64,000 nucleotides of DNA from Alcaligenes faecalis (GTDB lineage Bacteria; Pseudomonadota; Gammaproteobacteria; Burkholderiales; Burkholderiaceae_B): contig NZ_CP168006.1 in NCBI RefSeq assembly GCF_041521385.1, forward strand, positions 1,738,979 through 1,802,978, read 5' to 3'. The position numbers and the translations under genes are program-made. The notes below the pieces were generated by a model, which worked only from the letters and a program-made list of their open reading frames with translations, was not told the origin of the DNA and made no database searches. Positions 41,884 through 49,887 of the stretch are shown in pieces. The first letter of the stretch is position 1, and each line of letters starts with the position of its first letter.

Positions 41884-43578
41884 TTAGTTTGGCCCTAAAG
41901 TATTTATTAGTGTGCCGGGTTTACGCTGCAAACGACCCGCTTCAAACTGATAAACGCTATCGACCAAAGGCAGTAAACGGGTGTCGTGGGTGGCCATGAT
42001 CACGGTTTTCCCACGCGCCGCGGCCAGAATATCCTGCATCAAAGCCTGACTGGTTGGGCCATCCAGGCTGGCCGTAGGCTCATCCAGAAACCAGATATGA
42101 GCGGACGACAAAAGCACACGCGCCAGACACAGGCGGCGCTGCTGCCCCAAGGATAATTGCTGCCCACCCTCGCCCAGCCAGGTATCCAGTCCTTGGGGCA
42201 AATCACGTACCATACTGTCCAGTTGAGCATCGTGAAGAACCTGCCAGATTTGTTGCTCCGAAGCTGTCGGTTCTGCCAGCAATAGGTTATCGCGCACCGA
42301 GCCAAGAAACAGCGGTGAGTCCTGTGCCAGCAAGGCGCAGTGATCAAACCAGCTAGCGCGACTCCAGTCCTGGGCCACCTCACCCTCTACCAAATACTGC
42401 TGGCCCGAGGCAGGCAACAAGCGCATCAGCACACTCAGCAAGGTGGACTTGCCCGAACCGCTAGGCCCAAAAATGGCAATATGCTCACCGGGCCTAACCT
42501 GTAGCGACAACTGATCCAGCACCGGTTGCGAACCGTAGGCAAAGCTCAGATCTTTAATTTCCAGAGAGGCCGGCTTATCCAGCACAATCGCCTGCCCTTG
42601 CTCCGGATCGGTTTCCTCGGGTTCATCCAGAATCGTCAGCAAACGATGACTGGCCGCCTGCACTTCTCCCAAACGGGACGCGCCGCGCATCATCGGGGCC
42701 ATGATCTCAAACAAACCCAACAATGCCAAAACCAAACCAACCCATAAAGGGCCGCTCATCGTCTCCAAATTGACCTGCTGGGCGCCTACCAACAAGCAGG
42801 TCATCAGGGCCACCCCCATCAACACCTGTTGGGAAAACTGCCCGACAATGCCCCAGCCATTGCTGCGCAAACGGGCCTGCCCCAACTCTTGATTAAGCTT
42901 GTCCACTTGCTCCTGCACGGTACCCGCAGCGGCAAACACCTGAATATCGGCATAGGCACGAATGGCCTGATGCACCAGAACACGTTGGCGATTTTCCAGC
43001 TGATGCACGCGTTGGGCCGCACGGCCAGCACCACGGGCACAGATATACGGAATTAAACAGGCGGCGATCAGCAGGCAGGCCAAAATCAACCAGGCCCACC
43101 AAAACAGCCAGGTTTGCAGCACCGCGCTAAAGACCAGACCGGCCACCACCGCCGTAGTCAGCGGCACCAGAATCAGCAGGAGCACCAAATCCAGCACAGC
43201 GATATCAGCGGTCAGGGTAGAAGCCAACTCCCCATCCCGAAATTGGGCCAAGCGCGACTGACTGAACCGGCTCAACCGTCCAAAAACCAGAGTCCGAATG
43301 CGTACTTGCAAATCCAGGGTCAGGGCATGCCCCACCACCCGTTCCAGGTACCGGGAGGCAATACGCCAGAAAGACAGGCCACGGATCATGGCCGAGGGGC
43401 CAAACAGATTGAATACGACGCCTAGAGCCGCCAGGAAAGCACTGCTTAGGAACCAACCCGCCACCCCCAGAAGGCTCACACCTGCAGCCACCGTACTGAT
43501 CGCCAACAGAACCGTAAACAAGACGGCACCGCGTCGCGCGCGCAAGCTGGAACCTAAAAGACGAAACCACGCTTTCAT
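41884..43578 (-). CDS. cydC: Heterodimeric ABC exporter subunit CydC
   Basis: Half-transporter that pairs with CydD to export glutathione and cysteine (or, by newer work, heme-related substrates) to the periplasm, needed for cytochrome bd assembly. The 564-aa protein has an N-terminal six-helix membrane domain and a C-terminal ATPase with Walker A GPSGSGKSTLL, Walker B WFLDEPTASLDG, and the signature LSLGQQRRLCLARV (LSLGQ rather than the usual LSGGQ, common in such half-transporters). The ATG overlaps the cydD stop as ATGA, so the two are translationally coupled. The 14 further in-frame residues upstream overlap cydD and were excluded. Confidence 0.95.
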   Translation of the reverse strand: MKAWFRLLGSSLRARRGAVLFTVLLAISTVAAGVSLLGVAGWFLSSAFLAALGVVFNLFGPSAMIRGLSFWRIASRYLERVVGHALTLDLQVRIRTLVFGRLSRFSQSRLAQFRDGELASTLTADIAVLDLVLLLILVPLTTAVVAGLVFSAVLQTWLFWWAWLILACLLIAACLIPYICARGAGRAAQRVHQLENRQRVLVHQAIRAYADIQVFAAAGTVQEQVDKLNQELGQARLRSNGWGIVGQFSQQVLMGVALMTCLLVGAQQVNLETMSGPLWVGLVLALLGLFEIMAPMMRGASRLGEVQAASHRLLTILDEPEETDPEQGQAIVLDKPASLEIKDLSFAYGSQPVLDQLSLQVRPGEHIAIFGPSGSGKSTLLSVLMRLLPASGQQYLVEGEVAQDWSRASWFDHCALLAQDSPLFLGSVRDNLLLAEPTASEQQIWQVLHDAQLDSMVRDLPQGLDTWLGEGGQQLSLGQQRRLCLARVLLSSAHIWFLDEPTASLDGPTSQALMQDILAAARGKTVIMATHDTRLLPLVDSVYQFEAGRLQRKPGTLINTLGPN

Positions 43579-45275
43579 GCCGTCAGAACTCCTTGGGCAA
43601 TGTGTAACTGGTTCGAGCACATGGCCGCCAGCTCCTGATCATGCGTGGCTACGACCAGACAGCGTCCCTGACAAAAACGCAGAATGTTACCCATAACACG
43701 ATCCCGTGTCGCCGCATCCAGCCTGGAGCTGGGCTCATCCAGCAGCACGACATGGGGATTGGTCAAGAACAGGCGAGCCAGAGCCAGGCGCTGAATCTGC
43801 CCCCCGGACAGGCCAAAGCCCCCTTCGCCCAGCTCGGTTTGCAAACCTTGAGGCAAAGCTTGTACGAACTCGGCCGCACAGGCTTGTTCCAAGGCTTGCC
43901 ACAATTGCTCATCACTGGCTTGTGGCGCTGCCAAACGCAGGCCGTCAGCAATCGTACCCATGGCTAAAAAAGCTTGTTGAGAAATCAGCACAACCCCATC
44001 GTGACGCGTCAACAAACGCCCGGCTGTATCACTGTTACGCAGCAGGATTTCGCCCTGCGCCAAAGGGCGCAAACCAATCAGGCTTTCCAGCAAACTGGTT
44101 TTGCCCGAGCCACTGGCCCCCAACACCGCATAAGACTGATTGATATAGAGTTGCAGACTGGGCACTTCCAGCAAGGTCCCCTGCCCGCCCAACTGTGGTA
44201 AATGCAGACGTCGCAACACCAAGACCGGCAAGTTCGGAAAAACAGTTTCAACGTCTGCACGAGCAGAAGCAGCGGGAATCAAGTCTTGACCCAGACTCGC
44301 CCACAGTCTGTCGACCTCTACCGCAGCCGCACGTGCCGCTGCCCGGTCATGATAATTGGCAGCTAATTGGCGCAAGGGCTGATACGCCTCTGGAGCCAGA
44401 AGCAAGCAGAACAAGCCCTGCTGCAAGCTGACACCGGCAAAGGATTCACCCAGATAGCCCAGATAACCCAAACCAATATAAACAGCGATCCCGGCCACAC
44501 CCAATGCCGCAAAGAACTCCAGCACCGCCGATGACAAGAACGCGATGCGTAGCACTTTCATGGTGCGTGTGCGCAGCTCCTGACTGGCCAGCTCCACACG
44601 CTGCAACTCGTCCTGCCCCCGCCCCATCAGGCTCAAGGTAAAAATTCCGCGCAGACGGTCTGCAAAAAAGCCTGACAGGCGCAAGGTTGTTTGTTGTTGC
44701 TCTCGGCTGGCAGCCTCCGCGCCCCAACCCACCAGGGCCATGAACAAAGGAATCAGAGGCGTGCTCAACAAAAGAATCAAGGAGACAATGCCATCGACCG
44801 GCAAGACTGCCAGCACCAGTGCCAAAGGCACCAGGGCCGCCGCCGCCATACAAGGGATGTAGCGTGTCACAAAGCCATCCAGGGCTTCGATTTGCGTGAT
44901 CAAACTAGTAGAAAGCTCGCCGCTATTGCTGGCCCGCAAACGCGGCATCGTACTGCGGAACAGTCGGGCAAACAGCTCGGAGCGTAACCCTTGCTTCAGT
45001 TGTTCTGAAACCTTTTGCGCACGGCGCTCGCCCAAAGCGGAAATAGCAGCACGCAGCAGTAAGAGTGCGGCCACCATCAAGATAGAGAAAAGCTGCCCTG
45101 TCCAGGGCAGGCCATCGACCACAATTGCCTGCACGATCTTTGCCAGCAACCAGGCCTGGGGAATCAGTAAGGCGCCGGCCAGCACGGGGGCCAGCATGGA
45201 AGCCCGCAAAGCCGTGCGGGCGCGGCTGGAGAATTGCCCCAGCCATTGTTGCGCCGTTGGACTCTGTAGTGTCAA
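43575..45275 (-). CDS. cydD: Heterodimeric ABC exporter subunit CydD
   Basis: CydC partner, 566 aa, with a six-helix transmembrane domain (residues ~20-320; LAKIVQAIVVDGLPW and NSGELSTSLITQIEALDGFVTRY are recognisable) and a nucleotide-binding domain with Walker A LGASGSGKTSLLESL, signature LSGGQIQRLALARLF and Walker B VVLLDEPSSRLDA. The order cydA-cydB-cydX-cydD-cydC on one strand means the enzyme and its assembly factor are made together. Its start lies directly after the cydX stop without a gap. Confidence 0.95.
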   Translation of the reverse strand: MTLQSPTAQQWLGQFSSRARTALRASMLAPVLAGALLIPQAWLLAKIVQAIVVDGLPWTGQLFSILMVAALLLLRAAISALGERRAQKVSEQLKQGLRSELFARLFRSTMPRLRASNSGELSTSLITQIEALDGFVTRYIPCMAAAALVPLALVLAVLPVDGIVSLILLLSTPLIPLFMALVGWGAEAASREQQQTTLRLSGFFADRLRGIFTLSLMGRGQDELQRVELASQELRTRTMKVLRIAFLSSAVLEFFAALGVAGIAVYIGLGYLGYLGESFAGVSLQQGLFCLLLAPEAYQPLRQLAANYHDRAAARAAAVEVDRLWASLGQDLIPAASARADVETVFPNLPVLVLRRLHLPQLGGQGTLLEVPSLQLYINQSYAVLGASGSGKTSLLESLIGLRPLAQGEILLRNSDTAGRLLTRHDGVVLISQQAFLAMGTIADGLRLAAPQASDEQLWQALEQACAAEFVQALPQGLQTELGEGGFGLSGGQIQRLALARLFLTNPHVVLLDEPSSRLDAATRDRVMGNILRFCQGRCLVVATHDQELAAMCSNQLHIAQGVLTA

Positions 45276-45430: not shown

Positions 45431-46582
45431 TTAATAAGAATGAGAAGAGTCTTTCATGCTGGCAACCGACACCTTGCCACGCATTACGCTGTATACCCAG
45501 GAGGTATAGAGCACGATGATCGGCAAGAACACCAAAGTCACCAGCAACATGATCCACAAAGTCAGATGACTGGCTGAGGCATCAAACAAGGTCAGGCTGG
45601 AGCCTGGGTTCAAGGACGAAGGCAAGAGGAAGGGGAAAACCGCAAAGCCAAAGGTCAGAATGATGCCGGCCAGCGCCAGGGACGAGAACAGCAGGGCCAG
45701 CAAACCACGGCCACGACCAGCCAGCAATGCGCCCAGCAGCAGACCTGCGAAACCGACAATCGGTGCTGCCCACAAAGCAGGCCAGGTCCGGTAATTGGCC
45801 AGCCAGGCGCCTTCCACCATCTCGACCGTCTTTCCAATGGGGTTGGACATGGCGTGAGCCACTTCGGGCCAAGGCATGCTGTAGCCATTCATGGCGCTAA
45901 TCCACCAGCCACCGGCAGCAAAAGCTACGATGGACAACAACCCCAAAGGCATGGCCCAGGCACGCGCACGACGAGCCACATGATCACTTCCCTTCCAAGC
46001 GACCACCACCGCTCCTTGGAATGCCAACATCAAGACACTGAGCAAACCACACAGGATAGCGAAAGGCTGGAACAGACCGAAGAAGTTGCCTTCGTACATC
46101 GGGCGCAACGTCGTTTCGTCAAAGCCGAACGGAACGCCCAGCATGACGTTGCCAATGGCTACCCCGAACACCAGGGCACAAACCAGACCGGAAGCGGTCC
46201 AGATCGCGTCCCAGTTGCGACGCCAACGTGACGAGCTAAGCTTGCTACGGTACTTGATGGCCACCGGGCGCACGATCAAGGCCACCAAAAGCAGCATCAT
46301 GGCCAAGTAAAAGCCCGAGAAAGCCATGGCATACAACAGGGGCCAGGCCGCAAAAGCGACCCCTCCAGCCACGATCAACCAGACCTGGTTACCTTCCCAG
46401 ACCGGGCCAATCACGTTGTACAGCGTGCGCCGTTCGTCATCACTGCGGGCAACCAGTGGCAACACCATGGCCACCCCAAGGTCAGCCCCGTCCATGATGG
46501 CAAATGCCGCCAACAAAACGCCCAGCAGCAACCACCAGATGATGCGCAAGGTGTCGTAATCGAGAAGAATCAAGTTATCCAT
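45431..46582 (-). CDS. cydB: Cytochrome bd ubiquinol oxidase subunit II (CydB)
   Basis: The second structural subunit of the bd-type quinol oxidase, a microaerobic, high-affinity terminal oxidase. The 383-aa protein starts with DYDTLRIIWWLLLGVLLAAF and the marker FAIMDGADLGVAMVLPLV (near residue 27), followed by GPVWEGNQVWLIVAGGVAFAAWP (in ~57-79), all hallmark CydB segments; eight to nine hydrophobic helices follow. It follows cydA by 15 bp, and cydX comes 14 bp after it. Confidence 0.97.
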   Translation of the reverse strand: MDNLILLDYDTLRIIWWLLLGVLLAAFAIMDGADLGVAMVLPLVARSDDERRTLYNVIGPVWEGNQVWLIVAGGVAFAAWPLLYAMAFSGFYLAMMLLLVALIVRPVAIKYRSKLSSSRWRRNWDAIWTASGLVCALVFGVAIGNVMLGVPFGFDETTLRPMYEGNFFGLFQPFAILCGLLSVLMLAFQGAVVVAWKGSDHVARRARAWAMPLGLLSIVAFAAGGWWISAMNGYSMPWPEVAHAMSNPIGKTVEMVEGAWLANYRTWPALWAAPIVGFAGLLLGALLAGRGRGLLALLFSSLALAGIILTFGFAVFPFLLPSSLNPGSSLTLFDASASHLTLWIMLLVTLVFLPIIVLYTSWVYSVMRGKVSVASMKDSSHSY

Positions 46583-46597
46583 GATGGTTCCCCCTCC

Positions 46598-48181
46598 TTA
46601 ACCGCGCAGCAACGGAGCGTTGCGCGAACCATAAGACAAAGCGGAAGGTGTGACGGTCTCGCCAGCCTCGTCCGGACCTTTGCGAATTGAATGCAGCATG
46701 ACCTTGATACCAATCACCGCCAGGGTGCCGTAGAGCAACAGGAAGATCGTCATACTGATCATCAAGTCTACAAAGGACAAGCCAGAGGCCGCGTAGTAAG
46801 TCGGCAAGACACCTTCGATCGCCCAGGGCTGGCGTCCGAATTCAGCCACAAACCAGCCGCACTCGATCGCAATCCAAGGCAGGGGAATGCTCCAGACTGC
46901 TGCTTTAAGCAAGCGCGGGTGACGTTGCAGACGATCACGCGATGCCAGGAAGAAGGCCACACCAAAGAACAGAATGAAGTACAGACCCAAAGCCACCATG
47001 ACGCGGAAGCTCCAGAACAAAGGCGCAACCTGCGGCACCGTATCCCAAGCCGCCTGTGCGATGGTATCGGTATCGGCCTTGGTGATGTCGTCCGTATAAC
47101 GCTTGAGCAGCAAGGCATAGCCCAAGTCTTTCCAGTTATTGTCAAAGACGCGACGGGCCTCGAGATTGCCCGCATCAGCACGCACCAACTGAAGAGCCTC
47201 ATAGGCGCGCAAGCCATTGGCAATGCGGATCTTGGCATGCTCGACCAGCTCATTGATTCCCAGCATGGGAGTACTGACTGAGCGCGTCCCGATTAAACCC
47301 ATCACCCATGGAATTTCCACAGCGAAGCGGTTTTCACGGGCCTCCTGATCAGGCCAGGCCAGAAGATTGAAACTGGCCGGGGCCTCCTCGGTTTCCCACA
47401 TGGATTCCATGGCGGCAATCTTCATTTGCTGATGCTCAGTGGTCAGATAACCACTTTCATCACCCAGCACCACCACGGACAGGGATGCCGCCAAGCCGAA
47501 ACTGGCCGCTACCGTCATCGAACGCTTGGCCAGATCAATGTGACGGCCGCGCAGCAGGTACCACGCACTGATGCCCATGATGAACATGGCACCCAGAACG
47601 TAACCGGCACTGACAGTATGAACAACTTTGGCTTGTGCGACAGGATTGAGAATGACCTCGGCAAAGTCGGTCATTTCCATACGCATGGTGTGGGGGTTAA
47701 AGATGGCACCGACCGGGTTCTGCATCCAACCATTGGCGACCAGAATCCACAAGGCCGATAGATTGGTACCGATGGCAACCAGCCAGGTAACGATCAGGTG
47801 TCCCAGTTTGGAGAGGCGATCCCAGCCGAAAAAAAACAGGCCGACAAAGGTAGCTTCCAGGAAGAAAGCCATCAATCCTTCAATGGCAAGCGGCGCTCCG
47901 AAAATATCGCCTACATAGTGACTGTAATAGGCCCAGTTCATGCCGAACTGAAACTCCATCACAATCCCGGTGGCAACACCCAGGGCAAAGTTAATGCCAA
48001 AGAGCACGCCCCAGAACTTGGTCATGCGGCGCCAGATGGCTTTGCCCGTCATGACATAGACGCTTTCCATGATGGCCAGCAAAAAAGACAGGCCCAGCGT
48101 CAAGGGTACAAACAAAAAGTGAAACATCGCGGTGGAAGCAAATTGCAACCGCGATAAGGTAACGACATCCAGATCAATCAT
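46598..48181 (-). CDS. cydA: Cytochrome bd ubiquinol oxidase subunit I (CydA)
   Basis: Catalytic subunit with hemes b558, b595 and d, oxidising ubiquinol and reducing oxygen without pumping protons. The 527-aa length corresponds to the long-Q-loop (E. coli-like) type. Visible are [20 protein letters not shown] (residues ~9-28, with heme ligand His), [20 protein letters not shown] (near 75; the frame reads EFQFGMNW), the quinone-binding region near residues 245-260 and the [13 protein letters not shown] signature (near 440). The first codons overlap the end of the GbsR-type regulator by 8 bp, so the two are in one transcription unit. Confidence 0.97.
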
Positions 48182-48740
48182 GACGATCCCCAGTTTGATC
48201 AGCTTTGCGAATCTTTCCGGCGAAACCCAGCACTTTCTGAACTTTGCTACCTAAACGCATCAGATTTTGCAGGGTCTCAGGCGGTAAGTGATGAACCTCG
48301 TCAAACCAACCACAAGCCAACTCGATCAATTCCAGCATTTCATTAATGCGTTGCTGCCCATATGCTTCTTCGTCATTGACGGGCGCTTCCATAAGGATAC
48401 TTCGCAATAAGGTCAATGTGGGATCAATCTCGCGCTTGCGCTTTTCTTCCACCAAAGTACGAAAAATCTCCCACACATCACTGGGAGATTCAAAGTACTC
48501 GCGGCGCTCGCCGATCTTGTGTGTCATGTTGACCAGTCGCCAGGACTGCAATTCACGCAAGCTCATGCTGACATTGGAACGGGAGATGCCAAGCGTTTCA
48601 GCGATCTCGTCGGCGTGGAGGGCTTCGGGGGAAATGAACAACAAGGCATAGATCTGGCCCACCGTTCGGTTGACCCCCCAGCGCCCGCCCATCTCCCCGA
48701 AGTGCAGAACAAAACGCTCTGCCTGTGGTCCTAAATTCAT
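48174..48740 (-). CDS. GbsR/MarR-type transcriptional regulator at the head of the cyd operon
   Basis: A 188-aa winged-helix protein of the GbsR subgroup of MarR regulators. GEMGGRWGVNRTVGQIYALLF (residues ~14-34) and the recognition-helix segment ADEIAETLGISRSNVSMSLRE (near 40-60) followed by NMTHKIGERREYFES identify it. GbsR of Bacillus senses choline; this branch is not characterised. Its stop overlaps the cydA start by 8 bp, and an 18-bp perfect palindrome lies 12 bp before its own ATG. It likely controls the cyd operon and itself. AGGA precedes the start by six bases. Confidence 0.9.
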   Translation of the reverse strand: MNLGPQAERFVLHFGEMGGRWGVNRTVGQIYALLFISPEALHADEIAETLGISRSNVSMSLRELQSWRLVNMTHKIGERREYFESPSDVWEIFRTLVEEKRKREIDPTLTLLRSILMEAPVNDEEAYGQQRINEMLELIELACGWFDEVHHLPPETLQNLMRLGSKVQKVLGFAGKIRKADQTGDRHD

Positions 48741-48752
48741 GGCTTCCTGAAT

Positions 48753-48770
48753 TTTCAGTAATTACTGAAA
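48753..48770. promoter_or_regulatory. Perfect 18-bp palindrome upstream of the GbsR-cyd operon
   Basis: TTTCAGTAATTACTGAAA at 48753-48770 is a perfect inverted repeat ending 12 bp from the GbsR start codon on the minus strand. A possible TGTAAT -10 box overlaps its distal edge. Position and symmetry suit a dimeric winged-helix operator, probably for autorepression. It does not resemble an FNR or ArcA site. Confidence 0.75.
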
Positions 48771-48885
48771 TTACAAAACAAGACGTATCTTAACCCTAAA
48801 CTAATCTGTCTGCCACTGGTCCAAGGGCATCTGGCCTTACAATTTGCCTCCTGCAAATCTACATGCCAAGCACACACTTCACGTT

Positions 48886-48891
48886 TACAAT
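48886..48891 (+). promoter_or_regulatory. Candidate -10 box directly upstream of kdsD
   Basis: TACAAT ends about six bases before the kdsD ATG at 48898 and no Shine-Dalgarno sequence precedes that ATG. The same TTACAATTTG-type motif occurs again near 48838. No strong -35 hexamer is visible. If used, the mRNA would start at or next to the start codon. Confidence 0.35.
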
Positions 48892-48897
48892 TTCGCC

Positions 48898-49887
48898 ATG
48901 AATACATCGGCACTTTTAGATCCAGCACCTATCCTGTCCTCGGCACAACGCACCTTTGCCATTGAAATGGACGCGTTACAAGCACTGGGCAAACGTCTGG
49001 ACCAAAGTTTTGTAGAAGCCACCAAGCTGCTCGTGCACTGTCAGGGCCGCGTGGTGGTGACGGGCATCGGCAAGTCCGGCCATGTAGCCCGCAAGATTGC
49101 CGCTACGCTGGCCTCAACCGGCACCCCCGCTTTTTTCATGCACGCCGCCGAAGCCCTGCACGGGGATCTGGGCATGATCACCAAGCAGGATGTCGTGATT
49201 GCCATCTCCTACTCCGGTCAGGCCCAGGAACTGGTCACGGTGCTGACTGTGCTGCGTCGCATGGGTGCCAAGCTGATTGCCATTACTGGCAACGCCCAGT
49301 CCGAGCTGGCCCAAAATGCGGACCTGCATCTGGATGCCCATGTGGAACATGAAGCCTGCCCGCTCAACCTGGCCCCTACGGCCAGCACCACGGCCGCCTT
49401 AGTACTAGGCGATGCACTGGCCGTTGCCTGCCTGGAAGCACGCGGCTTTAGCCGTGAAGATTTCGCCCGCTCCCACCCCGGTGGTGCGCTAGGCCGTCAA
49501 TTACTGACGTTTGTGCGTGACATCATGCGCAGCGGCGAACAACTGCCCTTGGTAAGCCCCGAGACCTTGATCCCTGACGCTTTGATGGAGATGTCCAGCA
49601 AAGGCATGGGCATGACCATTGTCACTGACTCGCACGGCCATCCCGTTGGCATGTTCACCGATGGCGACCTGCGCCGTTTAATTGCACGTGTTGGTGATAT
49701 CCGCAAAGTGCCAGTGTCCGAGGGCATGTCGCGCGAACCACGCAGCATTGGTGCCGAAGCCCTGGCCATTGAAGCGGCCGAACAAATGGATGCCCTGCGT
49801 ATCAGCCAAATGCTGGTATTGGACACAAACGGGCTACTATTGGGAGCTCTGCACATGCACGACCTGTTGGCTGCAAAGGTAATCTAA
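48898..49887 (+). CDS. kdsD: Arabinose-5-phosphate isomerase KdsD (KpsF/GutQ family)
   Basis: Cytoplasmic isomerase making D-arabinose 5-phosphate from ribulose 5-phosphate, the first step towards Kdo of LPS. The 329-aa protein has a SIS domain (residues ~45-185; VVTGIGKSGHVARKIAATLA, FMHAAEALHGDLGMI, SYSGQAQELVTVL) followed by two CBS domains (from residue ~205; SPETLIPDALMEMSSKGMGM and so on). The ATG at 48898 gives the family N-terminus; 18 in-frame upstream residues do not fit. It leads a run with kdsC and lptCAB. Confidence 0.93.
   Translation: MNTSALLDPAPILSSAQRTFAIEMDALQALGKRLDQSFVEATKLLVHCQGRVVVTGIGKSGHVARKIAATLASTGTPAFFMHAAEALHGDLGMITKQDVVIAISYSGQAQELVTVLTVLRRMGAKLIAITGNAQSELAQNADLHLDAHVEHEACPLNLAPTASTTAALVLGDALAVACLEARGFSREDFARSHPGGALGRQLLTFVRDIMRSGEQLPLVSPETLIPDALMEMSSKGMGMTIVTDSHGHPVGMFTDGDLRRLIARVGDIRKVPVSEGMSREPRSIGAEALAIEAAEQMDALRISQMLVLDTNGLLLGALHMHDLLAAKVI

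Follow-up and report, generated by a model that had tools for sequence, protein, structure and literature searches.

A GbsR-type regulator of the CydE/CioR kind heads the cytochrome bd genes of Alcaligenes faecalis and is preceded by a predicted palindromic self-operator

GbsR-type regulators that act on cytochrome bd genes are already on record. The accessible part of a 2018 report on Alishewanella sp. WH16-1 describes CydE, a GbsR-type protein that is co-transcribed with cydAB and represses these genes directly, with footprints on TATTTCAGAAATTTCTGAAAGTTCA and on a second, unrelated site, and with sulfate, tested at 1–100 mM in vitro, as the reported inducer (PMC6096048). In Chromobacterium violaceum, CioR directly represses cioRAB; induction of the operon by cyanide depends on CioR, in vitro DNA binding is disrupted by Zn or Fe and not by cyanide, and Zn/Fe release has been proposed as the input (2025; PMC11837568). 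The available text of the same source also reports quorum sensing for the CioR-controlled CioAB, as well as the action of a second MarR-family repressor, OsbR, on cioRAB (PMC11837568). Moreover, in a survey from 2018, 34 of 179 gbsR-type genes were neighbours of cyd genes; its accessible sections also state that choline is a ligand of both GbsR and OpuAR of Bacillus, and glycine betaine a further one of OpuAR, via a proposed aromatic cage, the residues of which are missing from CydE (PMC6207618). A GbsR-class regulator within a cyd operon, as pointed out in the preliminary description of the present locus, is an arrangement that these three reports had already described.

The window, i.e. the whole stretch of 64,000 nt from Alcaligenes faecalis that was analysed, carries on its minus strand the genes cydE-cydA-cydB-cydX-cydD-cydC in this order (Table 1), so that the genes linked to the regulator are cyd genes. 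The regulator gene sits directly upstream of cydAB and, as read earlier from the same sequence, overlaps cydA by 8 bp (positions 48174–48181 are common to both ORFs); a single operon is predicted, and a promoter scan of the minus strand returned none. On the other side, a divergent kdsD/kpsF-type gene starts at 48898 (+), followed by genes resembling a lipopolysaccharide-export cluster. With its Pfam match above the cut-off, the cydE product is a winged-helix protein of the GbsR/MarR type, and the NCBIfam CudC model for a choline regulator matches it far under the cut-off. The nearest named relative among the matches listed is the regulator of Alcaligenes pakistanensis (97 % identity), and the closest solved structure by sequence, though distant, is Mj223 of Methanocaldococcus jannaschii (PDB 1ku9; profile E 5e-20), the available description of which mentions no cyd link. 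Window CydA is apparently of the long Q-loop type. Its residues 4–504 of 527 align, under the model cut-off, to NF011677, which we take to be the E. coli CydA model, and for 23 of the 35 short-type relatives a stretch after about residue 311–319 of the window protein is left uncovered by the two best alignment pieces.

Table 1. The cyd genes of the window and the predicted operator upstream of them
Feature	Position	Strand	Basis
Predicted CydE operator, perfect 18-bp palindrome TTTCAGTAATTACTGAAA	48753..48770	.	Conservation and likeness to footprinted CydE site 1
cydE (cioR-type), GbsR/MarR-family regulator, putative autorepressor	48174..48740	-	188 aa; Pfam MarR_2, profile match to 1ku9
cydA, cytochrome bd subunit I, apparently long Q-loop (L) type	46598..48181	-	527 aa; NF011677 match under cut-off
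cydB, cytochrome bd subunit II	45431..46582	-	TIGR00203 above cut-off
cydX, small subunit, 46 aa	45276..45416	-	PF08173 (YbgT_YccB) above cut-off
cydD, thiol-reductant ABC exporter subunit	43575..45275 (longest ORF, TTG start)	-	TIGR02857 above cut-off
cydC, thiol-reductant ABC exporter subunit	41884..43620 (longest ORF, GTG start)	-	TIGR02868 above cut-off

Compared with the described systems, as far as their accessible texts go, the locus shares with Alishewanella a GbsR-type regulator at the head of cydAB, but the Alishewanella operon is cydEAB, whereas the window adds cydX and cydDC. CioR resembles the predicted unit of the window in that a GbsR-type protein represses the operon it shares with cytochrome bd genes, although the target of CioR is a short-Q-loop CioAB. 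Bacillus GbsR, OpuAR, OpcR and YvaV belong to the same GbsR branch of the MarR family, yet they adjoin osmoprotectant genes and not cyd genes. Judged by gene order and homology, both of which can be read from the DNA itself, the window regulator is a real unit of the published CydE/CioR kind, and the case is largely ordinary, since this type of switch is already known in other bacteria. For Alcaligenes, a literature text search for cydE together with the genus name found nothing, with most subscription papers outside its coverage.

The candidate operator is a perfect palindrome, as first described, and is separated by 12 bases (48741–48752) from the cydE ATG at 48740. TTTCAGTAATTACTGAAA occurs without mismatch only once in the genome of 4.15 Mb and is the sole site in the window with three or fewer mismatches, the mean expected by chance being 0.01. 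It is identical at 16 of 18 positions to TTTCAGAAATTTCTGAAA, which lies within the footprinted Alishewanella CydE site 1; the second site footprinted there was not found in the window. This near-match to a footprinted CydE site, together with the presence of the box upstream of homologues, supports TTTCAGTAATTACTGAAA as a predicted self-operator, and the earlier suggestion of a dedicated GbsR-class regulator acting on its own operon is thereby well supported at the level of sequence. A text search of the literature with three letter strings of the palindrome returned only the Alishewanella paper (PMC6096048), most subscription papers again falling outside coverage.

Further targets of CydE in the host genome are not supported. 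Two other places match TTTCAGTAATTACTGAAA with three mismatches, i.e. one that is weak (L002) and one that falls within an ORF, LysR-like by eye (L003). The genome also holds a second cydA-family gene, shorter and CIO-like by eye (L086; G000:C1:1477628-1478905), upstream of which both a CydE box (best, eight mismatches) and an FNR-like site (four mismatches) are absent.

The preliminary description had made its reading depend on conservation of the palindrome upstream of orthologous operons, and the box is indeed kept there. Among the named loci, i.e. the best 80 of at least 569 confirmed homologues, in which near relatives are over-represented, the best box in the 250 nt upstream had 0–2 mismatches of 18 in 71 cases, the remaining nine carrying poor boxes with 3–6 mismatches, while only 0.075 % of 4000 randomised upstream regions reached four mismatches or fewer. 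All 10 genomes of the host genus have the exact palindrome directly before cydE, standing inside more variable flanks. Across the host family, the exact box TTTCAGNAATTNCTGAAA is present in 32 of 151 genomes, and in 30 of these, i.e. all but G063 and G013, it stands immediately before cydE. When two tables are read together, it occurs in 31 of 51 genomes with a protein match versus 1 of 100 without; 20 of these 51 lack it, some of them having no match outside the sister clade treated further on (G077 and G100 among those examined). As no family genome searched has more than one exact box and the sites are nearly all at cydE, CydE looks like a single-target autoregulator in the host family.

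This linkage extends beyond the family. cydA follows cydE in 79 of the 80 named loci; in 44 of them (L004–L047) the match to window CydA covers almost its full length, and in the other 35 it falls in the 30–41 % identity range, like short-Q-loop types. The box type is identical for long- and short-Q-loop operons, and such a common box for L-type and S-type oxidase operons is possibly new. In five other Chromobacterium species (L049, L050, L054, L065 and L076) the box, with one or two mismatches, stands 12 bp before the cydE match, so that it can well be predicted as the CioR operator. The only named CydE locus without a cydA hit (L077) has the box ATTCAATAATTACTGAAA and, divergent from cydE (L077:956-2494, minus strand), a gene whose product spans the membrane with several helices and ends in a cytochrome c domain (a match to PF13442 only); by eye, this protein looks like a distant CydA relative.

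A profile search at the phylum level (398 genomes) gave 71 matches in 66 genomes, 61 of the matches being examined. The 33 best (L122–L154, with the window as L122) were linked to cydA in 26 cases, to cydB without a clear cydA in the fetched DNA in three, to cydD in three and, at a contig end, to nothing in one; in L127 and L129 the regulator and oxidase genes lie on opposite strands, and in L128 and L140 the oxidase gene is upstream. In a tree of 90 sequences, which held 58 of the 116 cyd-clade members and other Chromobacterium species, the published CydE and CioR sequences being left out, the window regulator groups among cyd-linked Alcaligenaceae.

Considering these data, it is very probable that CydE binds the palindrome, represses its own cyd operon and releases it under conditions that disable other oxidases. 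A CydE dimer would occupy the 18-bp palindrome immediately in front of cydE and thereby repress the whole cydE-cydABX-cydDC transcript, i.e. by negative autoregulation. Once the heme-copper oxidases are disabled by cyanide, sulfide, NO or hydroxylamine, either this state or the ensuing metal release or metabolite change would cause CydE to leave the DNA, and the poison-resistant oxidase would be produced along with its assembly exporter. Binding, repression and derepression have been demonstrated in homologues; binding of window CydE to TTTCAGTAATTACTGAAA, a single transcript and the nature of the signal are what we infer for A. faecalis.

The same site may additionally serve the opposite direction, i.e. 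CydE may also control the divergent kdsD/lipopolysaccharide-export genes, which start 157 bp away, through one common switch. The palindrome does lie inside this 157-bp intergenic region (48741–48897), and the divergent ORF matches KpsF/GutQ above and KdsD under the cut-off; however, the box keeps near the cydE start in relatives, and shared control is rather improbable. We consider it more doubtful still that the palindrome serves another regulator, be it of the FNR/ANR class or osmolyte-responsive, with CydE acting elsewhere. A+T-rich palindromes are frequent targets of MarR-type regulators in general, a second repressor of this family, OsbR, also controls cioRAB in C. violaceum, and an FNR-like site with one mismatch at most is found upstream of cydE in 23 of the 80 related loci, against 0.25 % of 1600 shuffles. 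Yet the 300 nt upstream of window cydE hold no such site, the best candidate having four mismatches over 10 positions, and an assignment of the operon to the FNR/ANR/CydR-controlled class was dropped. Moreover, the box tracks the regulator gene across the family genomes, and the published footprint on a nearly identical site is that of CydE itself, which makes this reading very unlikely. Finally, although A+T-rich intergenic DNA yields short palindromes by chance, a chance palindrome without function is rejected with near certainty by its rarity in the window and by a conservation in genus, family and named loci and a linkage to cydE that are far above chance.

With CydE as the probable occupant of the palindrome, the signal remains to be considered. 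In the host genome, ccoN is preceded at a distance of about 75 bp by an exact FNR-type site (L192:1501-1514). Since cydE has none, it is the cbb3 oxidase and not cyd that bears the FNR-type signature in Alcaligenes. The earlier suggestion of a different input signal stands in so far as an input other than FNR is plausible; the arrangement itself is not new. A second FNR-type site occurs about 1.3 kb further on from the ccoN site. Choline, also proposed at the outset, is unlikely as the signal, given that CydE lacks the aromatic-cage residues according to the accessible sections of the survey (PMC6207618).

Regarding the protein itself, 90 of 107 cyd-linked sequences (nine unclear ones excluded) are devoid of any cysteine, and thiol sensing as a family property is ruled out by the lack of a conserved Cys. 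In the same set, His13 is kept in all 107 and His74 in 104. As 29 of 32 sequences without cyd linkage have His13 as well, it need not be an effector residue. This residue pattern is suggestive of metal sensing, as reported for CioR, rather than of thiol chemistry. The reported inducers conflict: CydE is said to respond to sulfate, whereas for CioR the effect was seen with cyanide in vivo and with Zn/Fe in vitro, as given in the accessible texts. The likeliest input is a consequence of respiratory inhibition, e.g. Zn/Fe release, over oxygen via FNR or choline. According to the available part of one report, A. faecalis makes hydroxylamine and NO (PMC11160463), and both compounds would be natural candidates for the stresses that require the bd oxidase.

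A further group of regulators bears on how the operator may be read. Thirty fetched relatives (L155–L186 minus L179 and L180), sharing 38–53 % identity with whichever of four CydE queries matched best, form a monophyletic sister clade (support, 100/100), the placement of which among the cyd-linked sequences is not firm (92/67). Neither cydA nor cydB was found in the fetched DNA near these genes (flanks of about 2 kb), L173 and L185 giving weak ABC-transporter hits only, and NAD-epimerase/DoxX-like, DUF4166 or small membrane genes are nearby in 21 of the 30 loci versus 0 of 116 in the cyd clade. The upstream palindrome differs as well: TTTCTG...CAGAAA precedes 25 of the 30 genes, each within one mismatch of 12 arm positions (four ties; one TTTCAG), whereas TTTCAG...CTGAAA precedes 105 of the 116 cyd-clade genes (100 with one mismatch at most; seven ties; four with no box). 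Of shuffled 150-nt upstream regions, 0.07 % reach one mismatch or fewer and 9.3 % three or fewer, so boxes with two or three arm mismatches carry little weight.

Residue 53, at the start of the recognition helix, is Ala in all 30 sister-clade proteins and Ser in 115 of 116 cyd-clade proteins. The sole exception in the cyd clade, L188, is cyd-linked, has Ala53 and shows a hybrid box, TTTCAGAAATTACAGAAA, with one arm of each kind; it represents a natural test of a residue-53 code. In the sister clade, L166 breaks the code by combining Ala53 with a TTTCAG box. Since it reflects a single main change in evolution, with one partial instance besides, the code is a lead and not proof. Residue 60 was dropped as a specificity residue, since the window protein has Ser60, like many sister-clade members, yet a TTTCAG box. 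The pairing of mostly TTTCTG...CAGAAA with Ala53, in a clade with no cydAB in the fetched flanks, is possibly new. One may tentatively picture, at somewhat less than even confidence, CydE as one half of a wider pair of proteobacterial sister repressors whose DNA code can be read (Ser53 with TTTCAG...CTGAAA; Ala53 with mostly TTTCTG...CAGAAA), both perhaps reporting inhibition of heme-copper respiration via a site around His13.

As far as sequence comparison goes, the operator prediction is strong, and its type is common to CydE-like genes and Chromobacterium CioR-like genes, the regulators of which have been studied separately. Because this same operator type precedes both regulators and both Q-loop types of oxidase, one biochemical answer on the signal should apply widely. 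For Alcaligenes, the prediction is that low-oxygen control, with its FNR-type site at ccoN, would be wired apart from poison-resistant respiration, i.e. CydE and cyd, a separation that is relevant in a species that itself produces hydroxylamine and NO.
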